Part shown: in pieces, positions 1-59,266 of the stretch
Position numbering within the stretch: the first letter of the stretch is position 1
Layout: every line of letters begins with the position of its first letter
From: Chromatiales bacterium
GTDB taxonomy: Bacteria; Pseudomonadota; Gammaproteobacteria; Steroidobacterales; GCA-2729495
DNA: 64,000 nt
Assembly: GCA_002729875.1 (NCBI GenBank)
Contig: PBZD01000020.1
Span: forward strand, 1-64,000
Direction: 5' to 3'
Notes under the pieces: model-generated
The model's database searches: none
Seen by the model: only the letters and a program-made list of their open reading frames with translations
Told to the model about the DNA's origin: nothing
Translations under genes and position numbers: made by a program

Positions 1-2275
1 AATCGTGGATGCTGTTGCTGGTATTTGGGGCTGCTGCACGTTCGACTTCACGCATGCGCGTGATGACATCGACCGGTGTGGCTTTTTGAAAATACTCAAA
101 GAAATTTTCTGAATCATAAATAAGGTTCTGGTAGCGAGTCGCACTGGCAGCGGTAAGAGTTTCCATGATGCGATGCCATTCACCCCGTTCCTTATCGGTT
201 TTCCCGTGTGGCATGGCCGTCGCTATGGCCACCGAATTCATGGTTTGTTCGAGTGTGCGCAAAGCAATGCCGCGTGCACCGTACTTGGCATTGACAAGTT
301 CACCCTGTTCAGTAGCACGTAACCGACCGCGTACGGTGCCGGGTGGTGAGGCCAGTACTGCCGCATGGGTGCGGCCACCGCCGCGACTGATTGTGCCGCC
401 GCGGCCGTGAAACAGGGTGAAATCTATGTCGGCCCTATCCATGGTTGCGATCAGGTCGGATTGTGCCTGGTGTAATGACCAGCGCGCTGACGCAATGCCG
501 ACATCTCGAGTGGTGTCCGAATAACTGACCATAATGATCTGGTGATTATTGCGTTGTTCCAGATGCTTGCGGTAGATATCGTTCTGCAGCAACTGGTGCA
601 TTGTCGATGAACAGTTGACCAGGTCTGCGTTGGTTTCAAAAAATGGTGTGATATCCAGTGGTATGCCACCATTTTTCTTTTTCAGGTCTGCCCAACGGGC
701 CAGCAATAGCACCGATAAAACGTCGTCAACTCCGTGAGCCATGCTGATCACATAGGGCCCAATGGACCGTTTGCCATAGCGCCGGCGACAGAAAGCGATG
801 GCCTGAAAAGTAGCCAGCGAGCGGCGTGACTGATTATCCGGATCAACGGACGGTGACTCATTGTTTTCCAGCGCTTCCTGCAGGCGCCGGGTTCGCTCTT
901 GTGGCGTCTTGTCGAGCCAGTGTTTTTCACCGAGACAGTGCCCCAATACCCGGCGGTTGATGATTGCACTCTGACGAATATCAAGAGTCAGAAAGTAAAA
1001 GCCGAAAGTTTTTGCCCGGGTAATCAGGCGCCGAGTCGAAAACAGCCCCGCATGTTTGCCGCTATTGGCCACCAGGCTGTCATGTACGAGTTGCAGATCC
1101 TTGATGAATTCATCCGCAGACTCGTAGGGAAAAACGTCATCATCAAAGGTTGCCTGCAGACGTTGTTCTACCAGCTTCAGGAAAGCACGGTAGGGCATGT
1201 CACGGTATCGCAACGAAACCTGGCCGGCGGCACCGGGGAACTGCTTCGCATATTGCTGGGTGCGCTTGAGCATTTCTTCGGAGACGTTGATACGGCTCGT
1301 GCTCTGACTTAATTTCTGCGCCAGTGCACTTACTTCATTAAAATACAGATTCAGGTTCAGAGAGCGTTGTCTGGCCAGTGTTTCACGGATCGTGCGCCCG
1401 GTGATATCCGGTCGGGCTTCAAAATCGCCGCCGATCCATGAAGAAAAGCGGAGTATTGTCGGTAGCTTGAGGTCGGCAGCTTCGTCACCATAGGCAAGCT
1501 TTAGTGAATTGGTTATCCGCTCGTAAAATGAAGGTACGGCACGATAAATGACATCTGTCAAAAAGAATAATATGTGTTCGACTTCATCGAAGACCGTGCG
1601 TTCTTCATGCGGATGTTCTTCCGTTTGCCAGATCGTAGTGATATCGCTACGAATACTTTCGAGATAAGCGTTAACTTCCGGCTGGGTTAGTATCGGATTC
1701 TGGATTTCAACGAGTCGTTTGACGATATTTTGCTGTTTGCGCAGGATGGTGCGACGTGTTGGTTCGATGCTGTCGGCGGCGAATACCGGTTCGATCTGTA
1801 GTGAGTGTAAAAGTTTGAGAACATCATCCAGGCTTAGCCCGGCTTCTTTCAGGCGGAATATGGTTTCTTCAATGCCGCGCGGTTGTCGGGTCGATGAGTC
1901 GTTGAGGTAATCACGCCAGCGGCGAATACGATGAACTTGTTCGGCGGTATTGACGACCTGGAAGTAAGTCGAAAAAGCGCGAATAAAATTACGTGCACTC
2001 AGGGGTGACAGTGACTGCACCAGGGCGTCGAGTTTTGCCCCGGCATGGTTATCGCCTTCGCGGCGGTCAATCGCAGTTCGACGTGCTGCCTCGACAACAT
2101 CAAACAGAGAATCACCGCCTTGTTCCTTGAGCATGTCACCGATCATGGTCGCCAGTATGTGTACATCATGGCGAAGTGCAGCATCCTTCTTTTTAAATTC
2201 TATGTCCTGGCGTTTTTCAGCAGGACGTGCTGTGGGATGCAGTCCCGTCGCTTCGATCGGATTCATGGCAGGCAT
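1..2275 (-). CDS. PEP carboxylase homologue with replaced catalytic motifs (C-terminus beyond window)
   Basis: Phosphoenolpyruvate carboxylase normally makes oxaloacetate from PEP and bicarbonate. The reverse strand is open from an ATG at 2275 to the window edge, giving 758 residues of a family usually 880-930 long. Family landmarks are clear: SSWIGGD near residue 280, LDIRQ, ITPFFET, YVISMA, the FHGRGG loop and ATEQGE. Three active-site signatures differ. TAHPTE, which carries the catalytic His (E. coli His138), reads AADSIE, with Asp168 at the His position. DRDGNP reads DFEARP at 284-289. The lysine of SDSxKDxG (E. coli Lys546) is Arg590 in SDTTRDVG. The frame is otherwise intact, so this is not an ordinary pseudogene. 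I infer a non-carboxylating or regulatory paralogue. The family assignment is secure and the activity is doubtful. A second ATG at 2266 is an alternative start. Confidence 0.9.
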   Translation of the reverse strand, partial: MPAMNPIEATGLHPTARPAEKRQDIEFKKKDAALRHDVHILATMIGDMLKEQGGDSLFDVVEAARRTAIDRREGDNHAGAKLDALVQSLSPLSARNFIRAFSTYFQVVNTAEQVHRIRRWRDYLNDSSTRQPRGIEETIFRLKEAGLSLDDVLKLLHSLQIEPVFAADSIEPTRRTILRKQQNIVKRLVEIQNPILTQPEVNAYLESIRSDITTIWQTEEHPHEERTVFDEVEHILFFLTDVIYRAVPSFYERITNSLKLAYGDEAADLKLPTILRFSSWIGGDFEARPDITGRTIRETLARQRSLNLNLYFNEVSALAQKLSQSTSRINVSEEMLKRTQQYAKQFPGAAGQVSLRYRDMPYRAFLKLVEQRLQATFDDDVFPYESADEFIKDLQLVHDSLVANSGKHAGLFSTRRLITRAKTFGFYFLTLDIRQSAIINRRVLGHCLGEKHWLDKTPQERTRRLQEALENNESPSVDPDNQSRRSLATFQAIAFCRRRYGKRSIGPYVISMAHGVDDVLSVLLLARWADLKKKNGGIPLDITPFFETNADLVNCSSTMHQLLQNDIYRKHLEQRNNHQIIMVSYSDTTRDVGIASARWSLHQAQSDLIATMDRADIDFTLFHGRGGTISRGGGRTHAAVLASPPGTVRGRLRATEQGELVNAKYGARGIALRTLEQTMNSVAIATAMPHGKTDKERGEWHRIMETLTAASATRYQNLIYDSENFFEYFQKATPVDVITRMREVERAAAPNTSNSIHD

Positions 2276-2504: not shown

Positions 2505-4322
2505 TTGCCGCAACTGCCTGAACTGCACGCAATCATTGTCATCTGTCTGACCTGCCTGGCGATGTTTTTGTTTACCAAAGACCGGATTCCCCTGGAAACA
2601 ACGGGGCTCGGCGTTCTGTTATTGCTCATACTGCTGTTTATCATATTCCCATATAAGAACATTAAGCCGACCGATTTCTTTATCAATTTCGGTCATGAAG
2701 CGCTGGTAACGATCTGTGCATTACTGATTCTCGGTCGCGGGCTTGAAACCACCGGTGCATTACAGCCACTTGCCACGATCATGTCGAGTTTCTGGCTCGA
2801 ACGACCGACACTGGCCTTGCTGGCGACACTGCTCGTTGCTGCGGTATGCAGCGCTTTTCTGAATAACACGCCGATTGTCGTCATGTTGTTGCCGGTGCTG
2901 GTTGCGGTTTGTATTCGTGCCGGTCGGCCACCCTCGAAGATACTCATGCCGATGGGCCTGGCCACATTAATCGGTGGCATGGCGACAACCATCGGTACCT
3001 CAACTAACCTGCTGGTTGTAGGTATTGCAGCCGATCTCGGTGAACGCCGTTTCGGCATGTTTGATTTTACCCTGCCGGTTTTGATCGCCGGGGGTGCGGG
3101 CTTGCTGTTCCTGTGGCTGGTGGCACCCCGCCTGTTGCCGGTACGTAAGGCACTCATGGTAGACACATCGCCGCGCCTGTTCAGTGCTGTGCTATACATT
3201 AATGAAGACGGGTATGCTCCCGGCAAGATGTTGTCAGAGGTTCGCGCCAAGACCGAGGGTCGTATGCGTGTTGACCGGATACAACGTACCGAGACCTTGT
3301 TTGTGGCGAAACTGCCGTCGATCAGACTACAGCCGGGAGACCGTCTGTATGTCAAGGATTCGGCCGAGCGACTCAAGGAGTTTGAACAAGCACTGGGTGC
3401 GACATTGTTCAACGTGTCGGATGGTGAGCATCCGGTCAGTGATGAGGTGCCCCTTGCGACTGAAGGCCAGCAACTGGCTGAAGTGGTTATTACCCGCGGA
3501 TCTGCATTGCATCATCGGACCTTGAATGCGGCACAGTTCAGTAACCGGTTCGGTTTGTTTCCTCTGGCGATTCATCGTGCCCGATCATCACAGGATGTCA
3601 GCGTTGATCTGGGTACAATTCGCCTGCGCGCCGGTGATGTATTACTCGTGCAGGGTTCACGCGAGTCGATTCAAACCTTGCGTGAGAACGGCTCTATGCT
3701 CGTACTTGATGCGACCACAGACCTGCCGCACACAAAACGTGCGCCAGTGGCACTGGGGATTATTATCGGGGTCGTCGCCTTTGCCGCTGCCGGTATCCTG
3801 CCGATTTCAGTGGCCGCATTATGCGGTGTTGCGCTGATGCTGTTGACCGGCAGCATGCAATGGCGTGATGCGGGTGATGCACTGAATATTCCGGTCATCA
3901 TGATCATCGTTGCGAGCCTGTCACTCGGTTTTGCACTGATGGAAACCGGTGGCGCCCAGTTTATTGCCGAGTGGTTTGTGTTTGTTACTCAACCGTTGCC
4001 GGTGCCGCTGATCCTGAGCGGTTTGATCCTGTTGATGACGCTGTTGACGAATGTGGTTTCAAACAATGCCGCAGCTGCTATCGGGACTCCGATTGCGATC
4101 AGTATTGCACAACAAATTAATGCGCCGACCGAACCATTCATCCTGGCCATTATCTTCGGCGCCAATATGAGTTTTGCGACACCTATTGGCTACCATACGA
4201 ACCTGCTGATCATGAGTGCCGGTGCCTATAAATTTACCGATTTCATGCGCATTGGTATTCCGCTGACACTGGTGATGTGGGCCGCTTTTACGATTATTTT
4301 GCCGTTGTTATACGACCTGTAG
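2505..4322 (+). CDS. SLC13/DASS-type anion transporter with two RCK_C domains
   Basis: This is a 605-residue inner-membrane protein of the SLC13 (divalent anion:Na+ symporter) type. Hydrophobic segments fill residues 5-210 and 410-605. A soluble insert lies between them, at about 215-400. Its repeated pattern (LRPGD/LRAGD, then LYVK or LLVQ) is that of two TrkA-C/RCK_C domains, as in the SAC1-like subgroup. The two symmetry-related substrate/sodium motifs are visible as GTSTNL near residue 165 and SNNAAAA near 520. The start is TTG with an AAGGG Shine-Dalgarno; no ATG fits better. The substrate (sulfate, dicarboxylate or other anion) cannot be read from the sequence. Its divergent neighbour is a PEPC-like gene, so a C4-dicarboxylate is a possible but unproven substrate. 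Confidence 0.88.
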   Translation: MPQLPELHAIIVICLTCLAMFLFTKDRIPLETTGLGVLLLLILLFIIFPYKNIKPTDFFINFGHEALVTICALLILGRGLETTGALQPLATIMSSFWLERPTLALLATLLVAAVCSAFLNNTPIVVMLLPVLVAVCIRAGRPPSKILMPMGLATLIGGMATTIGTSTNLLVVGIAADLGERRFGMFDFTLPVLIAGGAGLLFLWLVAPRLLPVRKALMVDTSPRLFSAVLYINEDGYAPGKMLSEVRAKTEGRMRVDRIQRTETLFVAKLPSIRLQPGDRLYVKDSAERLKEFEQALGATLFNVSDGEHPVSDEVPLATEGQQLAEVVITRGSALHHRTLNAAQFSNRFGLFPLAIHRARSSQDVSVDLGTIRLRAGDVLLVQGSRESIQTLRENGSMLVLDATTDLPHTKRAPVALGIIIGVVAFAAAGILPISVAALCGVALMLLTGSMQWRDAGDALNIPVIMIIVASLSLGFALMETGGAQFIAEWFVFVTQPLPVPLILSGLILLMTLLTNVVSNNAAAAIGTPIAISIAQQINAPTEPFILAIIFGANMSFATPIGYHTNLLIMSAGAYKFTDFMRIGIPLTLVMWAAFTIILPLLYDL

Positions 4323-35582: not shown

Positions 35583-35679
35583 GTGCTATCAAACTGTCCA
35601 TGGCTGTATATCGATTTGATCAGCTATGTCTGATCGGTTTGTTTGCGGAAAAAATACTCCTCATTTAAGGAATGCGACT

Positions 35680-37356
35680 ATGCCAAACGATCCGGAATTG
35701 GAGCATGACGAACAAACTGTATCACGACGAACCATGCTGGCCGGTGGGGCCGGTCTTGCGGCGCTGTCGGCTACACAATTGGTAAGTGGATGTGCGGCGA
35801 GCAGTGGTCAGGCAGCAGCCGTTAGTGTGGCTGAGACAATCCGGAATACGCCGTGCGCACCGTTCGATTCTTTTCGCGATTATATTGAGGCGATCGAGGC
35901 TCATGGCCTGGTGTTGCGGCTGCCACGCATCGATCAGGATGCCTATGAACTGGCAGCGTTAATGTATCGACTCACTGATGAGTACGGCTGGTATGAGGCA
36001 CCTTGCATCATAGCGGAAGAAGTCAAGATTGATGGTAAGTGGGTTACGGGCCCGGTAATTGTTAATCATATGGGGCATTGGTTTACCGAGGCCATTACGT
36101 TCGGTGTTGAGTTGGTGCCGGATGATGGTGTCGCAACCTATCGCAAGACCATGAAAAAGCTTGAAGGGATGCTGGTAGATGGAGAATATCCGACAATAGC
36201 ACCTGTAGAGGTTGCTCGTGATGAGGCAGCTTGCAAGGAGTTTGTCCTGCTTGGCGATGATATTGATTTGACCAGATTTGCATTTATCCAGAGCAATCCG
36301 GCCGATTCGCGACGTTATGTCAATACCGGATCTTCGTTTACCTATGGTCCGGTTATCGGCAAGAATTTTGGTGCCTATCGGTGTGAGTTGCGTGGTCCGC
36401 GCCTGCTCGGATTCAATCCGGAGCCAAATCAGACAGCCTGGCGTACGTTAATGGCTGCCAAGGAGCGGGGCGAGAAAAGTGTCAGGATTTCAATTGCCCT
36501 TGGCCTGGATCCTGTCATCTGGACGATTAGCAGCTCGCGTATTGTCAATCGCATGAGCAAGAAACAGGTGGACGAACTTGCTGTTGCCGGCGGTATGCGG
36601 GGCAAGCCGGTTAAGGTTGTACGTTCGGAAACCAATGATCATATGGTGCCGGCCAGCGCCGAGATGATTATCGAGGGCGAGGTGCCGCTTGATGATCTGA
36701 TGCCGGAGGGTCCGTTCGGAGAAATGTACGGTTACCTGGGAGATAAGCGTGAGGCCAATTTTATTATTAATGTTCTGGCAGTTACACATCGTAAGAATCC
36801 ATGGATTCTTAACCAGTTCACCGGTGCAACGCGGGGCTATGCAACCGCACCAACCGCAGTGTTATTCAATACGAGTCTTAGGCGTTTGGTACCGAATTTG
36901 ATAGAATTGCATTCGCCGGTGGATGCAACAGGCCTTACTTATATTCGCATCAGGAAGACCAGGCCCGGGGAAGGATTACAGGCAGGCCAGCGTCTTGCTT
37001 CAATTATTCCTATTTTTAAAGTTGTCATTGTTGTCGATGAGGATGTTGATGTGCTCGATACTCAGCAGGTCAATCATGCAATTGGCTCCAGGTGGATGCC
37101 GAAGACAGCAACAAAAATAGTTGAGAATGTACGTGCCATGGGTCTTGACCCAAGCCGCGATATCGATGGAAAAGTCAGTAAAATTGTTATCGATGCGACA
37201 AAACAATGGTCTGAGGAAAATGGACCAGAAGTGTTCCCCAGGCTGAATCGGGCGCTGCTTGAGGAATTGGCACCAGAGTCATTTGAGCTTGTTGACCGCA
37301 AGTGGGGGGGCGTAATCAAGCGCAAAACCCGAACCTTCGGTCCGGTTTCGGGGTGA
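35680..37356 (+). CDS. UbiD-family decarboxylase with Tat/lipoprotein signal
   Basis: UbiD enzymes decarboxylate aromatic or unsaturated acids with prenylated FMN in the cytoplasm. The ATG at 35680 has AAGGA 8 bases upstream and gives 558 residues, about 60 longer than typical UbiD. The extra N-terminus carries a twin-arginine motif SRRTML, a hydrophobic stretch and a lipobox LVSGC. The UbiD domain keeps GAYRCELRGP, the IIEGEV and EGPFGE motifs (the Arg-Glu-Glu set) and a complete C-terminus. No UbiX (prFMN synthase) is nearby. Export of a UbiD enzyme is unusual; the substrate is unknown. A start at 35626 would bury the signal. Confidence 0.88.
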   Translation: MPNDPELEHDEQTVSRRTMLAGGAGLAALSATQLVSGCAASSGQAAAVSVAETIRNTPCAPFDSFRDYIEAIEAHGLVLRLPRIDQDAYELAALMYRLTDEYGWYEAPCIIAEEVKIDGKWVTGPVIVNHMGHWFTEAITFGVELVPDDGVATYRKTMKKLEGMLVDGEYPTIAPVEVARDEAACKEFVLLGDDIDLTRFAFIQSNPADSRRYVNTGSSFTYGPVIGKNFGAYRCELRGPRLLGFNPEPNQTAWRTLMAAKERGEKSVRISIALGLDPVIWTISSSRIVNRMSKKQVDELAVAGGMRGKPVKVVRSETNDHMVPASAEMIIEGEVPLDDLMPEGPFGEMYGYLGDKREANFIINVLAVTHRKNPWILNQFTGATRGYATAPTAVLFNTSLRRLVPNLIELHSPVDATGLTYIRIRKTRPGEGLQAGQRLASIIPIFKVVIVVDEDVDVLDTQQVNHAIGSRWMPKTATKIVENVRAMGLDPSRDIDGKVSKIVIDATKQWSEENGPEVFPRLNRALLEELAPESFELVDRKWGGVIKRKTRTFGPVSG

Positions 37357-37674: not shown

Positions 37675-37806
37675 GCGTATGTTGTGCAGGTATGTATTAT
37701 TGTCCGATGACAGCCTTTTTTCTTCCCGTAGCATCGCTATCTGCGCATTCTTAGTGGTTGAGAATCAACCTCATCATTGATAGGAAGTTTTGCAGGAACG
37801 ATACGT

Positions 37807-38415
37807 ATGCCTGATATGAAAGCTATATTTGCAGCCAACCGTGAATGGGCACGGAGTATGTGTGAATCCGATCCGGATTTTTTCAATCGGCTGGTGAGTC
37901 AACAGGAACCGGAGCACCTATGGATCGGCTGCTCAGATAGTCGTGTGCCGGTTAACCAGGTTGCCGGGCTGCAACCTGGCGAGGCATTTGTCCATCGCAA
38001 CATCGCGAATATAGTGTCAATCGATGATTTAAATTGTCAGGCCGTCATTCAGTACGCCGTTGAAATTCTAGGCGTTAAATACATCGTGGTTTGCGGTCAT
38101 TATGGGTGTGGCGGCGTACTCGCTGCATTACGCGGACAGGCGACCGGCCTGATCGGTGACTGGATTAGCAGTATCGTTGCTTTACGTGAACAACATGCAA
38201 CTACTCTGGCTGCTTTGGCGAGCGAGGCCGAACGCCACGATCGACTGTGTGAACTCAATGTAATCGAGCAGGTACGCTGCCTTAGTGAAACCGAGGCTGT
38301 CAAGACTGCCTGGTCACGTGGGCAAGCTTTGCGGATACATGGCTGGATCTACAGTATCAGGGACGGTTTGTTAAAAGATCTGCATGCCTCGATCGATGGA
38401 CCACTCGGGGGATGA
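37807..38415 (+). CDS. can: beta-class carbonic anhydrase
   Basis: It interconverts CO2 and bicarbonate. From the ATG at 37807 (AGGA about 9 bases upstream) the protein has 202 residues. The zinc ligands and catalytic dyad are Cys42, Asp44, Arg46 (CSDSRVP), His98 and Cys101 (CGHYGCGG), the same numbering as E. coli Can. A start at 37777 would add ten residues and is less likely. It is transcribed alone. Confidence 0.94.
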   Translation: MPDMKAIFAANREWARSMCESDPDFFNRLVSQQEPEHLWIGCSDSRVPVNQVAGLQPGEAFVHRNIANIVSIDDLNCQAVIQYAVEILGVKYIVVCGHYGCGGVLAALRGQATGLIGDWISSIVALREQHATTLAALASEAERHDRLCELNVIEQVRCLSETEAVKTAWSRGQALRIHGWIYSIRDGLLKDLHASIDGPLGG

Positions 38416-51326: not shown

Positions 51327-51502
51327 GGCGTCTGTTCGGCTGTCGGGTCGGATTCTTCAGTGTCTTCAGTGGTTTGGGATTCTGCGGGCACAGCTGCTGC
51401 TTCCTGGTCCGGAAAATACAGGTCATCTTTTAATCCACACGCGCTTATCAGTAAGGCGGCTACGAGCGCCAGCATCAGGCGGCCGGTTTGTAGCCTATTC
51501 AT
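51323..51502 (-). CDS. lptM: LPS translocon maturation chaperone LptM-type lipoprotein
   Basis: LptM (YifL) is a small lipoprotein that helps oxidative maturation of the LptD/LptE translocon. The 59-residue protein has a signal peptide with lipobox ISAC followed by GLKDDLYFP, the family's CGxKGxLYxP motif with Asp in place of the second Gly. The acidic tail (EDTEESDPTAEQ) is not conserved. It overlaps both argH and polA. A longer in-frame reading extends into argH and is rejected. Confidence 0.88.
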   Translation of the reverse strand: MNRLQTGRLMLALVAALLISACGLKDDLYFPDQEAAAVPAESQTTEDTEESDPTAEQTP

Positions 51503-52685
51503 CGCTATCGAGATCTTTGCTGATGTGTCGGTAAGCGTCTCGAAAACTGATGCCTTCCTCCAGTACCAGGCGGTTGGCACGTCCGGCAGCATAGATTGAC
51601 TCATCGAGTTCAATGTTGTCGACATCAAATGATACGCCAGCGATCAGGTGTTCCATGATCTCGCAGGAGTCCATCGTCAGGTCTATGGCCCGGAACAGCG
51701 GGGGCTTGATGCGCTGCAGGTCACGCTGGTAACCCGAACTCAGCTTGGCCGGAATATTCATGATCTCAATCAATGCCGCCTGTAAAGTGGCCGTAGCGCC
51801 ACGGACCAGTTCGAGTACATCCGGATTGCGTTTCTGCGGCATGATCGACGAACCGGTGGTCATTGAATCGGGCAGCGTGATGAAGGCAAATTCCTGCGTA
51901 TAGAACAACATCAGGTCGGCTGCCAGGCGCCCGAGATCCTGCATTAGCAGACACAGTTCGAACACCAGTCCGGCCTCGGCCTTGCCCCTGGACAACTGTA
52001 CGGCCGTGACCGGTTCCTGCACACACTCGAATCCGAGTTCCTCACTCGTTGCGTCACGATCTATCGGCAGGCCCGGTACACCGTATCCGGCAGCGCTGCC
52101 GAGGGGATTCTTTGACAGCCTGCGGCGGCTGGCGGCGATACCGGTAGCATCGTCGCGAAGTTCTGCCGCAAACCCGCCGGCCCACAGCGGCACCGAACTC
52201 GGCATCGCCTGTTGCATATGGGTATAACCGGGCAATGCTGTGCCTGCCTCGCGTTCAGCCAGTGCATCCAGGGCAGCAGCAACCTCATCGGCCAGTGTTT
52301 CCAGTCCATCTGCGGCGTCGAGCAGGTACAGGCGCAGCGCGGCGAGTAGCTGGTCATTCCGCGATCGCCCCAGGTGAATACGTTTGCCGGCATCGCCGAT
52401 ATTTGCCGTCAGTCGTGATTCGAGCGCGGTGTGTACATCCTCGTCTTCAAGGTCGATTGTCCATTCTCCGCCTGTGAATGACTCTGCCAGTTCTTCAAGG
52501 CCGGTTACAATGTCATCGAGGTCTGCGTCGGACAATAATGATTGCTGGTTCAGCATCGTTGCATGCGCGATAGATGCTCGCACGTCATAATCGACTAGTC
52601 GGCTGTCCAGCAAATGATCTTCACCGGCGGTATAACGCAGGATCTGACTATCGAGTTGTTGCCCCTTGTCCCAAAGTCTTTTCAT
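51495..52685 (-). CDS. argH: argininosuccinate lyase
   Basis: ArgH splits argininosuccinate into arginine and fumarate, the last step. The protein has 396 residues, shorter than the usual 430-470. It keeps HTALESRL, the GRSRNDQL motif, PGYTHMQQAMPSS with the catalytic His, and the signature loop GSSIMPQKRNPD. The shortening is mostly at the C-terminus. It overlaps argB by 4 bases. Confidence 0.94.
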   Translation of the reverse strand: MKRLWDKGQQLDSQILRYTAGEDHLLDSRLVDYDVRASIAHATMLNQQSLLSDADLDDIVTGLEELAESFTGGEWTIDLEDEDVHTALESRLTANIGDAGKRIHLGRSRNDQLLAALRLYLLDAADGLETLADEVAAALDALAEREAGTALPGYTHMQQAMPSSVPLWAGGFAAELRDDATGIAASRRRLSKNPLGSAAGYGVPGLPIDRDATSEELGFECVQEPVTAVQLSRGKAEAGLVFELCLLMQDLGRLAADLMLFYTQEFAFITLPDSMTTGSSIMPQKRNPDVLELVRGATATLQAALIEIMNIPAKLSSGYQRDLQRIKPPLFRAIDLTMDSCEIMEHLIAGVSFDVDNIELDESIYAAGRANRLVLEEGISFRDAYRHISKDLDSDE

Positions 52686-53623
52686 GGATTCACTCCCGGT
52701 GCCTGTTCTTCTGCCGACAGCGTATTGATATTTTGCACGACCAGCGTGCCATTGCCTTCATTGGTGAAAATCTCAAGCAACAGGCTGTCAGACAGTTGGT
52801 AGGAAATGACATGGACACGACCGACACCGCCGTTAAGGGCGGCTTCTATGGCAGTCGCCTTCGGTAACATGCCGGCGGCGAGTGAGCCATTCTCACGCAA
52901 CTGCTGCAGTCCCGGCAGGTCGACATATGAAATCAACGAATCAGGATCATTGCGGTCGGTGAGAATTCCTGGCGCAGCGGTGACCAGCACCAGTTTTTCA
53001 GCTTCGAGTGCGGCTGCCAATGCGGCAGCAACGGTATCGGCATTGATGTTCAGCAGGGTGCCGGATTCATCGGCCGATAACGGACTGATAATCGGAACCA
53101 GGCCACTTTCAAGTTGCGTGCGCAGCACATCTGCGGCAACCGAATCGATGTCACCGACAAAACCGTAATCGACCGGTCCCGTAGCGTGTCCTTTAATAGT
53201 AACGGGCGGTCGCTTGTGTGCCTTGATCAGGCCTGCATCAACACCACTGATGCCGACGGCCGGCAGGTCCAGATCCCGGCATACCGCGAGTATTCGGGTA
53301 TTAATTTGTCCGTTCAGTACCATTGCGGCCACTTCAAGCGACTGTTCGTCGGTAACCCGTCGTCCCTCGATGAATTGAGTGGTCAGACCAAGGCTGTCCG
53401 CCAGTTCTGTTGATTGGGGGCCGCCTCCGTGCACGACTACGATACGGATTCCGACCTGGTGCAGGATTGCAATCTGTTCTATCAGCGCTCGGGTCGATTC
53501 GACAGAGGCAAATATTTCGCCACCCGCTTTGATCACAAAGATTTTGTGTTTGAACATCCTGATATACGGTGCGGCATGTTTTAGTGCCGCTACCACGACG
53601 TCTCTGTTTTCATTGTTTTGCAT
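52682..53623 (-). CDS. argB: N-acylglutamate kinase (acetylglutamate kinase family)
   Basis: ArgB phosphorylates an N-acylglutamate, the second step of arginine synthesis. The ATG at 53623 gives 313 residues with VIKAGGEIF, VVVHGGGPQ and LNINADTVAA in order. Unlike the Xanthomonas enzyme it has no C-terminal acetyltransferase domain, so it cannot supply the first step. The C-terminal IFTNEGNGTLVV is a variant seen in several other phyla. Whether it takes acetyl- or succinylglutamate is open. It lies 22 bases after argF'. Confidence 0.92.
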   Translation of the reverse strand: MQNNENRDVVVAALKHAAPYIRMFKHKIFVIKAGGEIFASVESTRALIEQIAILHQVGIRIVVVHGGGPQSTELADSLGLTTQFIEGRRVTDEQSLEVAAMVLNGQINTRILAVCRDLDLPAVGISGVDAGLIKAHKRPPVTIKGHATGPVDYGFVGDIDSVAADVLRTQLESGLVPIISPLSADESGTLLNINADTVAAALAAALEAEKLVLVTAAPGILTDRNDPDSLISYVDLPGLQQLRENGSLAAGMLPKATAIEAALNGGVGRVHVISYQLSDSLLLEIFTNEGNGTLVVQNINTLSAEEQAPGVNP

Positions 53624-53645
53624 GAGTCTGTCCCAAAGGGTGAGG

Positions 53646-54650
53646 TTAGCTGCCGGCCAGTATCTGGTGCAGTATTGCCATCTGTGCATACATTCTGTTT
53701 TGCGCTTCCTGAATTACAACACTGCGTGGTCCATCAAGCACTTCATCTGCTACCACAACGCCACGGCGTACAGGTAAACAATGCATAAATCTGCAATTGT
53801 CCTGGGTGGTGGCGAACCAGGATTCATCGATACACCAGTCAAGAAGGTCTTGTCTTAGTTCCTGGTCGGCTACCCGATTGCCGTAGTGCCGGGTTGACGC
53901 CCAGGACTTCGCATAAATAATCTGCGCATCTTCAAGTGCTTCGTTGCGATTGTCTGTTTCGTTCACAGAACCTCCCGATAGCTCTGCCGCCTGCCGGGCC
54001 TTGTCCATAATCGATGCAGGCAGCTCATATCCTTCAGGGCGCAGCACAGTAACGTCCATGCCGCGCATGGCGGCCATATGCACCGTTGCTGAAGGCACCG
54101 CCAGCGGCAGTACCCGCGGGTGATAGGCCCAGCTCAGCACAAATTTACCACCGTTGCCCGGTATGCCGAGGTCACTCATCGTTTTCCAGTCGGCAAGACT
54201 CTGACAGGGGTGATTGATTGCCGATTCCATGTTGATTAAGGGTATCTGGCAATATTCACGCATATTATTAAACTCACGGTCGTCAAGATCATGCTCAAGG
54301 TTGCGGCGTTCGGCAAAAGCGCGGATGCCGATTGCGTCAGCATAAGAGGCGATAACCGGCACGGCTTCACGAATATGTTCTGCGGCCGCGCCATCCATGA
54401 CGATGCCGGGACGGGTCTCGATACCGTGGATCGACATATCAGGTGAGATGACGAATGAGCCACCGCCGAGACGCGCCATGGCTGCCTGAAAGGAAGCCAG
54501 CGTGCGCAAAGAGGGGCTCATGAATAACAATGCAAGAACCTTGCCCTCCAGCGCACGCGGCTCGGGGCTGGTTTGCAGTCGGTTGGCCAGTGCCAGTAAT
54601 TCCAGTACCTGTTCACTGCTCAGGTCTGCAAGATCGTTAAATTCCTTCAT
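53646..54650 (-). CDS. argF': N-acylornithine carbamoyltransferase, N-succinylornithine type
   Basis: The 334-residue protein belongs to the transcarbamylases that act on N-acylated ornithine (Xanthomonas AOTCase, Bacteroides SOTCase) and not free ornithine. SPSLRT at 45-50 binds carbamoyl phosphate; HPCQSLAD and HCLPVRR follow. The specificity position after MDG is Ala90 (MDGAAAEH). AOTCase has Glu92 there and SOTCase has Pro90; changing Glu92 to Pro, Ser, Val or Ala is reported to turn AOTCase into a succinylornithine enzyme. The AOTCase-specific carboxylated Lys302 is replaced by Val in RRGVVVADE. I infer N-succinylornithine as substrate. The start follows AGGAA at good distance. Confidence 0.88.
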   Translation of the reverse strand: MKEFNDLADLSSEQVLELLALANRLQTSPEPRALEGKVLALLFMSPSLRTLASFQAAMARLGGGSFVISPDMSIHGIETRPGIVMDGAAAEHIREAVPVIASYADAIGIRAFAERRNLEHDLDDREFNNMREYCQIPLINMESAINHPCQSLADWKTMSDLGIPGNGGKFVLSWAYHPRVLPLAVPSATVHMAAMRGMDVTVLRPEGYELPASIMDKARQAAELSGGSVNETDNRNEALEDAQIIYAKSWASTRHYGNRVADQELRQDLLDWCIDESWFATTQDNCRFMHCLPVRRGVVVADEVLDGPRSVVIQEAQNRMYAQMAILHQILAGS

Positions 54651-54690
54651 GCTCTGTTCCTTGCGGCATAGTCGGCGGTGGTAAAGCCAC

Positions 54691-55845
54691 CTATTTATCA
54701 GGTATCTCGGCCAGGCACTCGATGAGCCGGGCAAAGTGTTGTTCTTCAGTGATTAATGGTGGCAGCAAACGGATCACATACGGATCGGTGCTGGTGCCGA
54801 CGAGTATGTTCAGGTCCAATAGTTCGTTACGGATTTCAACCGCAGGTCGCCGACATTTTAGTCCGAGTAAAAACCCCTTGCCCTGCAGGCTGTCGACGGG
54901 TCCGACCTGGCAATGTGCTGCAATATAGTCCGACAGCACGCGTACATTGCCGATCAGGTGATCACGTTCGATGACGTCAATGACAGTCCTGATGAGTGTG
55001 CAGGCCAGCGGTCCGCCGCCAAATGTGCTGCCAAGATCACCCGGTCCGACTGCAGACGCGATGACATCATTCACCATTAAGGCGGCACACGGAAATCCAC
55101 CGGCAATCGACTTGGCAATGGTGAGCATATCCGGCTCGATGTTATACAGGTCCGTCGCGAATGGTTGTCCGCAGCGGCCCATGCCGGTTTGCACTTCATC
55201 GATGATTAGCAAGGCGCCGTTATCCGCACACGCGTCAGCAATGGCAGTTACGAATGCACTGTTGAGAGCAAAACCACCGGCGAGCCCCTGTACGAGTTCG
55301 AGAATCACAGCAGCCGTTTTATTTGAGATGTTTTCGGCAACCTCGGCGAGAGCATTACGCTCGATAAAATCGACCTCGAACGGTGTGTGCGGGAATCCAT
55401 ACCACTTATCTCGGGCACCCCAGCTCACGGCGCCGGCCGCTGCAGTGCGGCCGTGGAATCCGTGCTTAATCGCTGCAACTCGTGACCGACCGGTTAGTTT
55501 GCAGGCCAGGCGCAGGGCGTTTTCATTCGCTTCAGCTCCGCTGTTGGCAAAGAACACATGATTGAGGCCGTCAGGTGCAAAGTCGGCCAAAGCGTCGGCA
55601 GCGTCGGCGCGAACTTCCATGGCAACGGCGTTGCTCTGGAAAAACACGGCCTGAGCCTGTTCATTCAGCGCCATGAGCATGTCGGGATGTCCGTAGCCCA
55701 GTGCGGCGACTGCGTGCCCTCCGTACAGATCGAGAATCTGTCGCGATTCACACGTCAGGTAAACACCCTGGGCACCGGTTGGTTCAATCGGCAACTGGCC
55801 GTAAACCTTGAGCAGATGCTGGGCCTCGTGTTCGCGCGCGTTCAT
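54691..55845 (-). CDS. argD: N-acylornithine aminotransferase
   Basis: ArgD is a PLP class III aminotransferase making N-acylornithine. The ATG at 55845 gives 384 residues, preferred over a TTG at 55863 inside argC. FFANSGAEANENALRLA binds the cofactor phosphate, IIDEVQTGMGRCG holds the PLP-contacting Asp, and the PLP lysine is in LTIAKSIAGGFPCAA. In relatives the same enzyme also serves diaminopimelate synthesis. Confidence 0.93.
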   Translation of the reverse strand: MNAREHEAQHLLKVYGQLPIEPTGAQGVYLTCESRQILDLYGGHAVAALGYGHPDMLMALNEQAQAVFFQSNAVAMEVRADAADALADFAPDGLNHVFFANSGAEANENALRLACKLTGRSRVAAIKHGFHGRTAAAGAVSWGARDKWYGFPHTPFEVDFIERNALAEVAENISNKTAAVILELVQGLAGGFALNSAFVTAIADACADNGALLIIDEVQTGMGRCGQPFATDLYNIEPDMLTIAKSIAGGFPCAALMVNDVIASAVGPGDLGSTFGGGPLACTLIRTVIDVIERDHLIGNVRVLSDYIAAHCQVGPVDSLQGKGFLLGLKCRRPAVEIRNELLDLNILVGTSTDPYVIRLLPPLITEEQHFARLIECLAEIPDK

Positions 55846-55849
55846 CGTC

Positions 55850-56917
55850 TCATGTCCAGGCAAGTGCCGGTGCAGTCAGCCCGGTCGTTTCATTAAAACC
55901 AAGTTTTCTATTCATCCACTGTACGGCTCCACCGGCCGCACCCTTGACCAGGTTGTCGATGACAACGAACATGGCAACAGAGCCGTCCCGGGTGGCGACA
56001 CCCATGTGGCAGTAATTACTGCCGACAATATTTTTGATTTTTGGCGTGCCATCTTGCACCGAGATAAATTCACAGTCGGCATAAAATTCATGCAGTGCGT
56101 TGCGAATATCATCAGCCGTCTGGTTGGCAGTTAATTTTGCCTGCACAGTCATATGAATGCCGCGCGCGAATGGGCCGGAGTGAGGTACAAAGTGCAGTGC
56201 CGGCTGTCTGCCGGTAATCGCAGCACAGATAGTCTTGACCTCCGGTGCATGACGGTGGTCTAACGGCTTGTAGGCAAACAGATTTGACTGGCGTTCGGGG
56301 TGATGGGTGCCGGCCGCCGGGGTGCGGCCCGAACCGGTGCTGCCGGTGATGCCGCAGGCATACAGGTCGGTTTCCGTCAGGCCCAGTTTGATCAGCGGCA
56401 CGGCTGCAATGAGCAGTGCCGTGGCAAAGCAGCCGGGATGAGCGATATGCGGCTGGTCGGTGGTTGCCAGGTGTTCCGGTATGGCGCTGGCAAATTGATC
56501 CAGCAACTGCGGGGCACCATGCGGCTGGCCATAAACAGCGCTGTAGGCATCTGCGTCGGCATAACGAAAGTCTGCCGATACATCGACGACCGTCAGTTTG
56601 CAGCCGGCCGTATCAGCCTGTTCGATAAATTCTGCGATCAGCGCTGCGCTTGCGCCGTGTGGCGCAGCTGAAAACAGCGCCCATTGGTCACCGTTGTTGC
56701 TATCCTTTAGTACTGAGAGCAGGTCCTGTTTACTGCTGAATACCAGTTCACCCAGTCTGTCCTGCAGTTGCGGAAAAATGTCGCGTATCGGTGTACCGGT
56801 CTGGCTTTCGGACATGACTCCGGCAACTTCAAGCTGCGGGTGTCCCGCCAGCAGGCGCAATAGTTCGCCTGCCACATAGCCGGTACCGCCCAGAACAATC
56901 GTAGCGATGCTGCTCAT
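55850..56917 (-). CDS. argC: N-acyl-gamma-glutamyl-phosphate reductase
   Basis: ArgC reduces N-acylglutamyl phosphate to the semialdehyde with NADPH. The 355-residue protein has the nucleotide motif VLGGTGYVAGELLRLL, the catalytic Cys in AHPGCFAT and HVPHSGPFARGIHMT with the general-base His. It overlaps the preceding P-loop gene by 4 bases, so its translation is coupled to it. Confidence 0.94.
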   Translation of the reverse strand: MSSIATIVLGGTGYVAGELLRLLAGHPQLEVAGVMSESQTGTPIRDIFPQLQDRLGELVFSSKQDLLSVLKDSNNGDQWALFSAAPHGASAALIAEFIEQADTAGCKLTVVDVSADFRYADADAYSAVYGQPHGAPQLLDQFASAIPEHLATTDQPHIAHPGCFATALLIAAVPLIKLGLTETDLYACGITGSTGSGRTPAAGTHHPERQSNLFAYKPLDHRHAPEVKTICAAITGRQPALHFVPHSGPFARGIHMTVQAKLTANQTADDIRNALHEFYADCEFISVQDGTPKIKNIVGSNYCHMGVATRDGSVAMFVVIDNLVKGAAGGAVQWMNRKLGFNETTGLTAPALAWT

Positions 56918-57999
56918 GATGGTTCCCCGTTCAGGTCATTTTTCCCGTCAACCTGTAAATTGATAACTTTGGCGACCGCATCACCGAGCTCGGTGCCATG
57001 GGTAATTGCATTAAATGCCGGCAACCCAAGTCGGTCGGTAATCAGGTTGGTGCCGACCAGGTTGTCGGTCGCAGGTCCGGTTATGACATCAGGACTTAAA
57101 GAAAATTCATCATGCAGCAGTTTAACGCCGCCCCATGCTGCAACCGGATCATTCGCGCAGAGTACGAGACAGGTGATGGCGGATCTAATCCCTTCATCCT
57201 TGAGAATTGCTTCGACACCGTAAGCTCCGAGCAAACCGTCGCCGAGTTCAAAGACGATGACATCCGGTTTGTCAGCTGCCAGCTGGGTTAGCATCATGCG
57301 AGTGACCGGAGGACCATTCTCCTCCGTCGTCGTCACGACACCGAAGTCGGTAAAAATAGCCGTCTGTCGTGCCCCCGCATCTTCCATCGCAAGAATATCC
57401 CTGCGCAGGGATACGCCGGTCGCTTTGAAGGCATCAACCGTATGACCATAATGTCGCAGCCTGCTGACAATGGCGCTGGCGGCGGCAGTCTTGCCCGAAT
57501 CCATGCTGGTGCCGGCCAGCACCACGACGGGTACTGCCCGGGTATCTATTGCAGCATTCATTTCCAGCTGATCTGTACCGGCTCTTGCGGGCACCCCGAT
57601 ACGTTCGCCGAGATAGGGAAATTCGAGTACGGTACCGAGTACTTCGGCATCGAACGGTGGACCAAAGTTGGCATTGACCGAATCGCAGATGCCGATTACG
57701 CCGCCAATGTTCAAAACCTGGACTGTGTCGCCCGGACTGAGTTGGGAGGGCAAATGTCCCGAATAGCCGAACAGCGCCTTACGATGTCCCAGAGCACCGA
57801 CAATAATGTCACCGCGGCGTACCTTGGCCATGCGGCCGCTGGTCAGCTCGAGGGTGTTGTATGAACTCTTGCTGTTGAGGATTCTGACGGCCAGCAGTAC
57901 GCCTTCCTCACAGGGAATTTCGGCACTGACCTGCAACTTGCGCTTTAGTCCCCGGTGCTGGGCAACCGAGGCAATTTTGTCGGCGATCACGGTCTTCAT
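56914..57999 (-). CDS. P-loop protein of unknown function inside the arginine operon
   Basis: The 361-residue protein lies between argG and argC and overlaps each by 4 bases. An N-terminal domain (about 25-130) is rich in beta strands (GDIIVGALGHRKALFGYSG, GDTVQVLNIGGVIGI). From 155 on it has a SIMIBI-like P-loop domain: Walker A GTSMDSGKT at 163-171, a dethiobiotin-synthetase-like ATGVSLRRD, and DVIVFELGDG at 245-254 as Walker B. It resembles DUF1611/dethiobiotin-synthase-type NTPases but I am not sure of the family. Its position implies a step of arginine synthesis. The genes for N-acylglutamate formation and deacylation are missing from the cluster, so either step is a candidate. Confidence 0.8.
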   Translation of the reverse strand: MKTVIADKIASVAQHRGLKRKLQVSAEIPCEEGVLLAVRILNSKSSYNTLELTSGRMAKVRRGDIIVGALGHRKALFGYSGHLPSQLSPGDTVQVLNIGGVIGICDSVNANFGPPFDAEVLGTVLEFPYLGERIGVPARAGTDQLEMNAAIDTRAVPVVVLAGTSMDSGKTAAASAIVSRLRHYGHTVDAFKATGVSLRRDILAMEDAGARQTAIFTDFGVVTTTEENGPPVTRMMLTQLAADKPDVIVFELGDGLLGAYGVEAILKDEGIRSAITCLVLCANDPVAAWGGVKLLHDEFSLSPDVITGPATDNLVGTNLITDRLGLPAFNAITHGTELGDAVAKVINLQVDGKNDLNGEPS

Positions 58000-59222
58000 G
58001 AGGATTGGTCCGATCCGGCGGCAGCGCGGGTTTGCAGCATACCGGTGAGCGATAGAATTTTTGCATAGCCCAGCGCATCAGCTGGCGTCCATTCGCCGGC
58101 GGCTTCACCGTATACGCCTTTGGTGGCAGCCATCAGTGAGTGCTTCGTGGTGACGCCTTCGATAAATACGCTGCCGACCCTGAACTGTACGGTAACTTCA
58201 CCCGTAACAAACCGTTGCGATGACTCAAGCAACGCCTCGATATCGCGGCAGGCCGCATCGAGCTGTTTGCCTTCATGCACGTAGTCACCATAGCTTGTAG
58301 CAACAGAGTCCTTGATGCGGGTTTGCAGGGCACTCAAGGTTAGTTTTTCCAGTTCCCGATGGGCAGTGAGCAGTACTTCTGCGGCCGGGGCTTCAAAAGC
58401 GACCCGGCCCTTGGTGCCGAGCACGGTATCACCGACGTGAATGCCACGTCCGATGCCGAACGGGCCGGCCAGCATTTCAAGTTTTTCGATCAGTGCAACC
58501 GGCTCCATCCTGGCGCCATCGAGACTCACCGGGATGCCGCAGCTGAAGCCGACGATATGCGTCTCGGGTGACAGCGGTTGCTCGAGCGCACCAGGCGACA
58601 GAACCCAGGCCTGTTCCGGGATTGTGCCGTGCGAGTCAAGGGTTTCCCGACCGCCAATCGATACGCCCCACAGGCCACGGTTGATCGAATATTCGGTTCC
58701 CTTGGCCGGAATCGGGTAAGCGTGCTGCTCAAGATAAGCAATTTGCTCAGGGCGCACGAAGGACTGGTCGCGCACCGGCGCGAGCACCTCAAGATTCGGA
58801 TTGATGGTGCGCAGGGCAACTTCGAAGCGAACCTGATCGTTGCCGGCCGCCGTACAACCGTGTGCGACGGTATCAGTGCCGCGTTCGGTAGCGATTTCAG
58901 CCAATAGTTGCGCCTGGATACCACGTTCGGCGCCCACGCACAGCGGATAGAGTTGTCCCCGACGGACATTCCCGGCGATCAGGAAGCGGATCACTCGTTC
59001 GAAAAATATTTCTCGTGCCTCGATGAGCAGGTGTTCCTGTGCCCCGAGCTGCATTGCTCTGGCCTGTAGATCTTCGGCCGCCGCAGCATCGAGTCCGCCG
59101 GTGTTGATACAAACCGTCACCACCGGGCGCTGGTAGGTTTCTTTCAGCCACGGGACACAGAAGGAGGTGTCGAGCCCGCCGGAGAAGGCCAGGATGATCG
59201 GTGATTGAGATTCTTTATTCAT
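57996..59222 (-). CDS. argG: argininosuccinate synthase
   Basis: ArgG joins citrulline and aspartate with ATP. From ATG 59222 the protein has 408 residues and starts near the P-loop AFSGGLDTSFCVPWL. It has GCTAAGNDQVRFE and YSINRGLWGVSIGG, like the Xanthomonas-type enzyme. A GGAA precedes the ATG. An in-frame ATG at 59243 adds seven residues. It is the first gene after argR. Confidence 0.94.
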   Translation of the reverse strand: MNKESQSPIILAFSGGLDTSFCVPWLKETYQRPVVTVCINTGGLDAAAAEDLQARAMQLGAQEHLLIEAREIFFERVIRFLIAGNVRRGQLYPLCVGAERGIQAQLLAEIATERGTDTVAHGCTAAGNDQVRFEVALRTINPNLEVLAPVRDQSFVRPEQIAYLEQHAYPIPAKGTEYSINRGLWGVSIGGRETLDSHGTIPEQAWVLSPGALEQPLSPETHIVGFSCGIPVSLDGARMEPVALIEKLEMLAGPFGIGRGIHVGDTVLGTKGRVAFEAPAAEVLLTAHRELEKLTLSALQTRIKDSVATSYGDYVHEGKQLDAACRDIEALLESSQRFVTGEVTVQFRVGSVFIEGVTTKHSLMAATKGVYGEAAGEWTPADALGYAKILSLTGMLQTRAAAGSDQSS

Positions 59223-59266
59223 GGTTCCGCGTTCCGGGTTCAATAGTCTGGATGTCCTGGTATCAA

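Follow-up and report, generated by a model that had tools for sequence, protein, structure and literature searches.

A phosphoenolpyruvate carboxylase homologue with replaced catalytic residues and its probable retention as a pseudoenzyme under purifying selection

The window analyzed here, a stretch of 64,000 nucleotides (bases 1-64000 of the 88-kb contig C10 in G000, a genome that is 78% complete), carries at its edge a gene for a phosphoenolpyruvate carboxylase (PEPC) homologue in which several catalytic residues are replaced. We consider this protein to be, probably, a pseudoenzyme of PEPC origin that has been retained for some non-carboxylating role, most plausibly ligand binding or scaffolding. 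This reading builds on orthology, locus, pattern of loss, selection and the occurrence of alternative carboxylases, all of which were observed directly. PEP carboxylation is probably absent in g1, the genus of the window, to judge from the residues present. More tentatively, the protein may act as a ligand binder or scaffold linked to the dehydrogenase that the next gene downstream encodes.

The gene is a single open frame of 758 amino acids that starts with ATG and runs to the contig edge, the C-terminal ~170 residues of the protein lying outside the window (Table 1). Homology places it in the PEPC protein family. It matches Pfam PEPcase (PF00311) with an E value of 4.5e-177 over profile positions 1-734 of 919, the remainder being lost beyond the contig edge; its match to E. 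coli PEPC (1fiy) has an E value of 3.3e-83. The cut-short protein scores 586.5 bits against the PEPC equivalog model NF000584, below its cut-off of 815 bits. Three full-length members of the host family also fall under 815, at 800.5 (a g1 congener), 807 and 643, the shortfall being small for the first two, whereas the scores of intact orthologues lie above it, at 887-918, as does that of a canonical second copy, at 1139. To judge from its sequence, the degenerate protein probably retains the PEPC fold; an AlphaFold2 model from a five-sequence input was of very low confidence, with a mean pLDDT of 39.5 and a pTM of 0.28.

Table 1. Positions in the window of the PEPC-like gene, its altered and kept motifs, and its divergent neighbor.
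Feature	Position	Strand	Remark
Putative PEPC-like pseudoenzyme CDS	2..2275	-	residues 1-758 of about 925, ATG start, C-terminus off contig edge
AADSIE for TAHPTE (E. coli 136-141; H138 to D168)	1763..1780	-	
DFEARP for D(R/M)DGNP (E. coli 252-257)	1409..1426	-	
SDTTRD for SDSxKD; metal ligand D543 = D587 kept, K546 to R590	503..520	-	
Metal-ligand Glu547 kept (E. coli E506)	635..637	-	
HGRGGTISRGG kept (H579, R581, R587 equivalents)	377..409	-	
VERA for GSRP loop (E. coli 697-700)	35..46	-	
NES......N...R motif (N472, S474, N481, R485)	821..862	-	invariant in 35 family sequences, not in intact orthologues
Divergent CitMHS/DASS-type anion transporter with TrkA_C domains	2505..4322	+	conserved neighbor, context only, outside pseudoenzyme

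Residues were mapped onto E. coli K-12 ppc (L070), and the mapping bears out two of the replacements named in a preliminary description of this DNA, that of the catalytic His138 by Asp168 and that of the catalytic Lys by Arg590. Next to His138, P139 and T140 have become S169 and I170. Lys to Arg is a conservative change, and the replacement of K546 on its own would not be decisive. The third replacement that had been described, DRDGNP to DFEARP, is real (R253, D254, G255 and N256 correspond to F285, E286, A287 and R288, and the wider motif GGDRDGNP reads GGDFEARP), but its first altered letter is not a catalytic loss because position 253 is naturally Met, not Arg, in many PEPCs of the host order. 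The meaningful losses in this motif are thus D254, G255 and N256. The earlier statement that the frame and the other family landmarks remain holds for the open frame, for the metal ligands E506 and D543 (E547 and D587), for R396, R581 and R587 (R434, R625 and R631), and for R144 and H579. It overlooked the GSRP loop with R699, which is also lost, the aligned Arg standing in another context.

These changes are not artifacts of one assembly. A full-length orthologue of 925 amino acids in a congener (L041/L032) is 89% identical to the window protein and also has AADSIE, and two further congeners have TASRIE (L036/L033, 78% identical to L032) and TADNIE (L024/L034, 71% identical to L032) at the His138 motif. 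In all three of these g1 assemblies the gene is intact to the C-terminus (925 amino acids). Because independent assemblies share the changes or show parallel ones, sequencing error, which had been named as a possible refutation, is excluded, and so is a frameshift.

The gene is also not a lone aberration of the genus, as the degenerate copy is found throughout the family. Of 40 family genomes, mainly draft assemblies, 39 carry a member of the PEPC family, in nearly all cases a degenerate orthologue at one locus. Upstream and transcribed away from it are trp genes and the CitMHS/DASS-type transporter, and downstream is a D-2-hydroxyacid dehydrogenase gene. In sister families of the order, including Woeseiaceae (L035), this locus or its vicinity holds PEPCs with intact motifs. 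The alignment and tree that had been proposed as a check place the degenerate copies of the family in one well-supported clade nested inside the intact orthologues. A long-branched sequence from another family, L065, also falls in this clade, and its position is unsure. A recent duplicate of a normal ppc can be rejected, given that the degenerate copy is the orthologue at the locus and the normal second copies lie elsewhere on the tree.

Several other observations concern the order and the window. In members of the family and of the order, the transporter is often separated from the PEPC-like gene by a gene for an uncharacterized protein of ~430-490 amino acids (for example L035:4608-6026, reverse strand, and L056:4116-5588, forward strand), with only a weak ribonucleotide-reductase-like match. 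Degenerate PEPCs also occur in other families of the order, namely L048 (G055), L065 (G048), L040 (G059), L044 (G039) and L026 (G053). Their changes include H138P with K546D in L048, D543A in L040, and K546R or K546Q in L044 and L026, and active-site loss in PEPC seems to recur in the host order. Elsewhere in the window, a UbiD-family decarboxylase (35626-37353, forward) has an N-terminus resembling a twin-arginine export signal (SRRTMLAGGAGLAAL); an exported UbiD enzyme, if this is one, would be unusual. It is followed by a carbonic anhydrase gene (Pro_CA, 37777-38412, forward). A separate gene encodes a 343-residue protein of the uncharacterized family DUF6687 (Pfam PF20392; 41534-42562, forward). 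Arginine genes at 51498-59243 (reverse) include an N-acetylornithine carbamoyltransferase of the Xanthomonas-type route that scores above its NCBIfam cut-off. Within this cluster, a 361-residue ORF (56917-57999) that matched neither Pfam nor NCBIfam might supply a missing step of the arginine pathway.

Across the family, catalytic residues have been lost repeatedly and differently from genus to genus. The comparison set 35 sequences from the family against 13 intact relatives, the two groups having similar mean pairwise identity (0.56 and 0.54, respectively). Conservation of 34 catalytic columns was 0.537 in the family, against 0.995 in the intact set and a family mean of 0.570 over all columns. 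Of the 217 columns invariant in the intact set, 108 are still conserved in the family; for the 33 catalytic columns among them the number is just 4 (hypergeometric p 1.2e-6). The minimum numbers of state changes along the tree, with reversals counted and a few degenerate PEPCs from other families included, were 4 at H138, 6 at D254, 8 at K546, 8 at R713 and 2 at R587. H138 is lost and R713 varies in g1; H138 or K546 is lost in g6; g8 has V254, V546, mostly A587, and G713; g9, g7 and g5 have lost D254 and K546, with D543 often changed to Glu. Mostly only E141A, R396K and C-terminal changes are seen in g4, where an SRP remnant offset by one residue in the alignment makes a claim of GSRP loss across the whole family too strong. 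Positions 506 and 543 are acidic in 39 of 39 family sequences and H579 is universal. The pocket is as variable as an average column, and the lack of a fixed new set of pocket residues across the family argues against one shared new chemistry, which was among the roles guessed earlier and is unlikely family-wide.

Since g1 keeps the metal ligands together with R396, R581 and R587, its protein may still be capable of ligand binding or of part of the reaction. One possibility, to which we give a minor share of our belief, is that the g1 protein, though unable to complete carboxylation, can bind Mg/Mn, PEP and bicarbonate and either form carboxyphosphate or hydrolyze it, which would make it a PEP phosphatase dependent on bicarbonate or a sensor of PEP and bicarbonate. 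All four g1 genomes keep E506, D543, R396, H579, R581 and R587 while having lost H138, a residue that the title of Terada and Izui (1991), as referenced in PMC11832675, ties to the second partial reaction. However, D254, G255, N256 and the GSRP loop are lost as well, R713 varies, and PEP hydrolysis would waste energy. It would also not be a family-wide function, as other genera lose K546, R587 or R396. The PEP sensor proposed in the preliminary description is likewise possible in g1, where R396, R581, R587, E506 and D543 remain, but doubtful for the family as a whole, in which R699 and R713 are poorly kept.

Whatever the protein does, its sequence is under strong constraint. Nei-Gojobori dN/dS values were 0.117 (G000/G002), 0.122 (G006/G024), 0.078 (G010/G022), 0.072 (G033/G035), 0.114 (G007/G014) and 0.074 (G009/G016); the resulting range of 0.07-0.12 rests on unsaturated pairs, values with dS above about 1 being taken as saturated and not relied on. 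The values for the PEPC-like gene resemble those of trpE in the pairs measured for both genes, and in G007/G014 its value falls below that of the dehydrogenase. Purifying selection thus acts on a catalytically degenerate protein whose catalytic columns have been released, the combination expected of a pseudoenzyme. A gene decaying without function after replacement by other anaplerotic enzymes might also show many different catalytic-site losses, and alternative enzymes do exist. We nevertheless reject a functionless relic, and give decay hardly any credence, on account of these dN/dS values and the open frames: no internal stops were seen in the PEPC-like copies among the 39 family genomes with the gene, half of the ancestral invariants are kept, and overall identity is as in the intact orthologues.

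Other carboxylases are present in many of these genomes. G000 has an intact pyruvate carboxylase (1164 amino acids, 1797 bits against a cut-off of 965); it also has a match to isocitrate lyase and, at the end of a contig, a fragment of GTP-PEPCK. The second, normal ppc whose presence had been raised earlier was not found in G000, a weak negative at 78% completeness, and the congener G003 has a canonical PEPC (994.8 bits) besides the degenerate one. Second PEPCs occur in 11 family genomes on several tree branches (L002, L003-L005, L006, L009, L011, L017, L018, L082 and L083), all motif-intact save L082, which has Arg at 546. Their separate branches suggest that a replacement ppc may have been acquired repeatedly. 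Nine other genomes have pyruvate carboxylase, and the two enzymes never occur in the same family genome (p 0.037, uncorrected for shared ancestry). Of the 11 genomes in g1, g6 and g2 together, 10 carry one of these two enzymes; the remaining genome is 73% complete. G029 (87% complete) has pyruvate carboxylase and no PEPC match. GTP-PEPCK or ATP-PEPCK is usual in the remaining family genomes. Together with the lack of internal stops, the low dN/dS and the released catalytic columns, the frequent presence of another carboxylase supports the earlier suggestion of selection for a role other than carboxylation.

The genus g4 may be an exception. Its genomes are mostly without another carboxylase; in closed ones the copy at the degenerate locus is the only PEPC, pyruvate carboxylase is missing and almost every catalytic residue is kept. 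The g4 protein, being close to intact, could still have activity; the pseudoenzyme label is strongest for g1 and may not be valid for the whole family. A slow but working PEPC, with the lost residues compensated by others, would also agree with the high sequence conservation and low dN/dS. Yet His138 is reported to be essential, the pocket varies like an average column, and many family genomes have other, mutually exclusive carboxylases, and as a general account we find slow carboxylation improbable. The canonical PEPCs raise a different alternative, that the degenerate protein serves an active PEPC as its regulatory subunit. There is a precedent in plant bacterial-type PEPC (BTPC), a homologue that has a regulatory role besides catalysis in Class-2 complexes (PMC5854131). 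Such a role is very unlikely here and was rejected as a general one, because co-occurrence is seen in only 11 of 40 family genomes, and most, nearly complete ones included, are without a canonical PEPC.

If the degenerate protein is a pseudoenzyme, its closest candidate partner is encoded next to it. In about 25 family genomes the D-2-hydroxyacid dehydrogenase starts about -3 to +38 nt from the PEPC stop, five g8 genomes among them showing a short overlap, whereas in intact orthologues of the order it lies 460 to 4000 nt off, in several with a YcgN gene between. The dehydrogenase scores 412.6 against NF005069 (2-hydroxyacid dehydrogenase), below the cut-off of 448 yet close, and its Arg/Glu/His triad is intact in all sequences but one, in which the search pattern was unmatched. 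It was not found near the PEPC-like gene in part of g4 and in G020, nor was a close copy found in G000, where C10 ends before the expected place of the gene. An intact dehydrogenase beside a degenerate PEPC suggests a functional pair, and the adjacency may be mere compaction. A second observation is that all 35 family sequences share, without variation, the pattern N-x-S...N...[KR]R at E. coli 437-453, which is never complete in intact relatives. After rarefaction, about 31 columns outside the active site were gained in the family against 26 lost; an excess of newly invariant residues over normal clade gain is therefore statistically unsupported, and only the N-S-N-R clustering is notable. It is conceivable, if speculative, that a new conserved surface (E. 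coli N437, S439, N449 and R453) serves throughout the family in metabolite-gated regulation of the adjacent and probably co-transcribed dehydrogenase.

For the preferred reading, a pseudoenzyme with a non-carboxylating role, we propose that the ancestor would have been the resident functional PEPC of the order, whose descendant still occupies the ancestral locus. The constraint of carboxylation would have been lifted in the family while the protein was kept for another job, and the catalytic residues would then have drifted separately in each genus, while strong purifying selection continued to act on reading frame, length and the remaining sequence.

Textbooks present PEPC as an entry point for carbon, and finding it in a genome is routinely taken to mean anaplerotic carbon fixation. 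A conserved ppc that is probably non-carboxylating in several genera would make such annotation-based pathway calls wrong for this family. The family also shows an active site being lost step by step and in parallel while the rest of the protein stays under selection. Forms that are near-intact (g4), intermediate and heavily altered (g1, g8 and g9) are all extant, and this makes the retention of dead metabolic enzymes directly testable in the lineage. In the literature searched, which left out most subscription papers, we found no precedent for a PEPC pseudoenzyme.

Compared with bacterial PEPC (PF00311; NF000584; E. coli ppc), the window protein shares full-length homology, length, many family landmarks, metal-ligand acids and the HGRGG loop, and its gene is orthologous to the intact PEPCs of the order. 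It differs in that H138, D254-N256, K546 and the GSRP loop are replaced, and a full-length congener falls narrowly under the NCBIfam cut-off. Among PEPC homologues known to have regulatory roles, plant BTPC comes nearest; BTPC, however, stays active and pairs with plant-type PEPC, whereas here catalytic residues are lost and usually there is no active PEPC. With metabolic pseudoenzymes that act allosterically or as scaffolds, the protein has in common strong constraint despite lost catalytic residues, such proteins often being linked to an active enzyme. In contrast to them, the PEPC-like copy derives from the resident orthologue and not from a recent duplicate.
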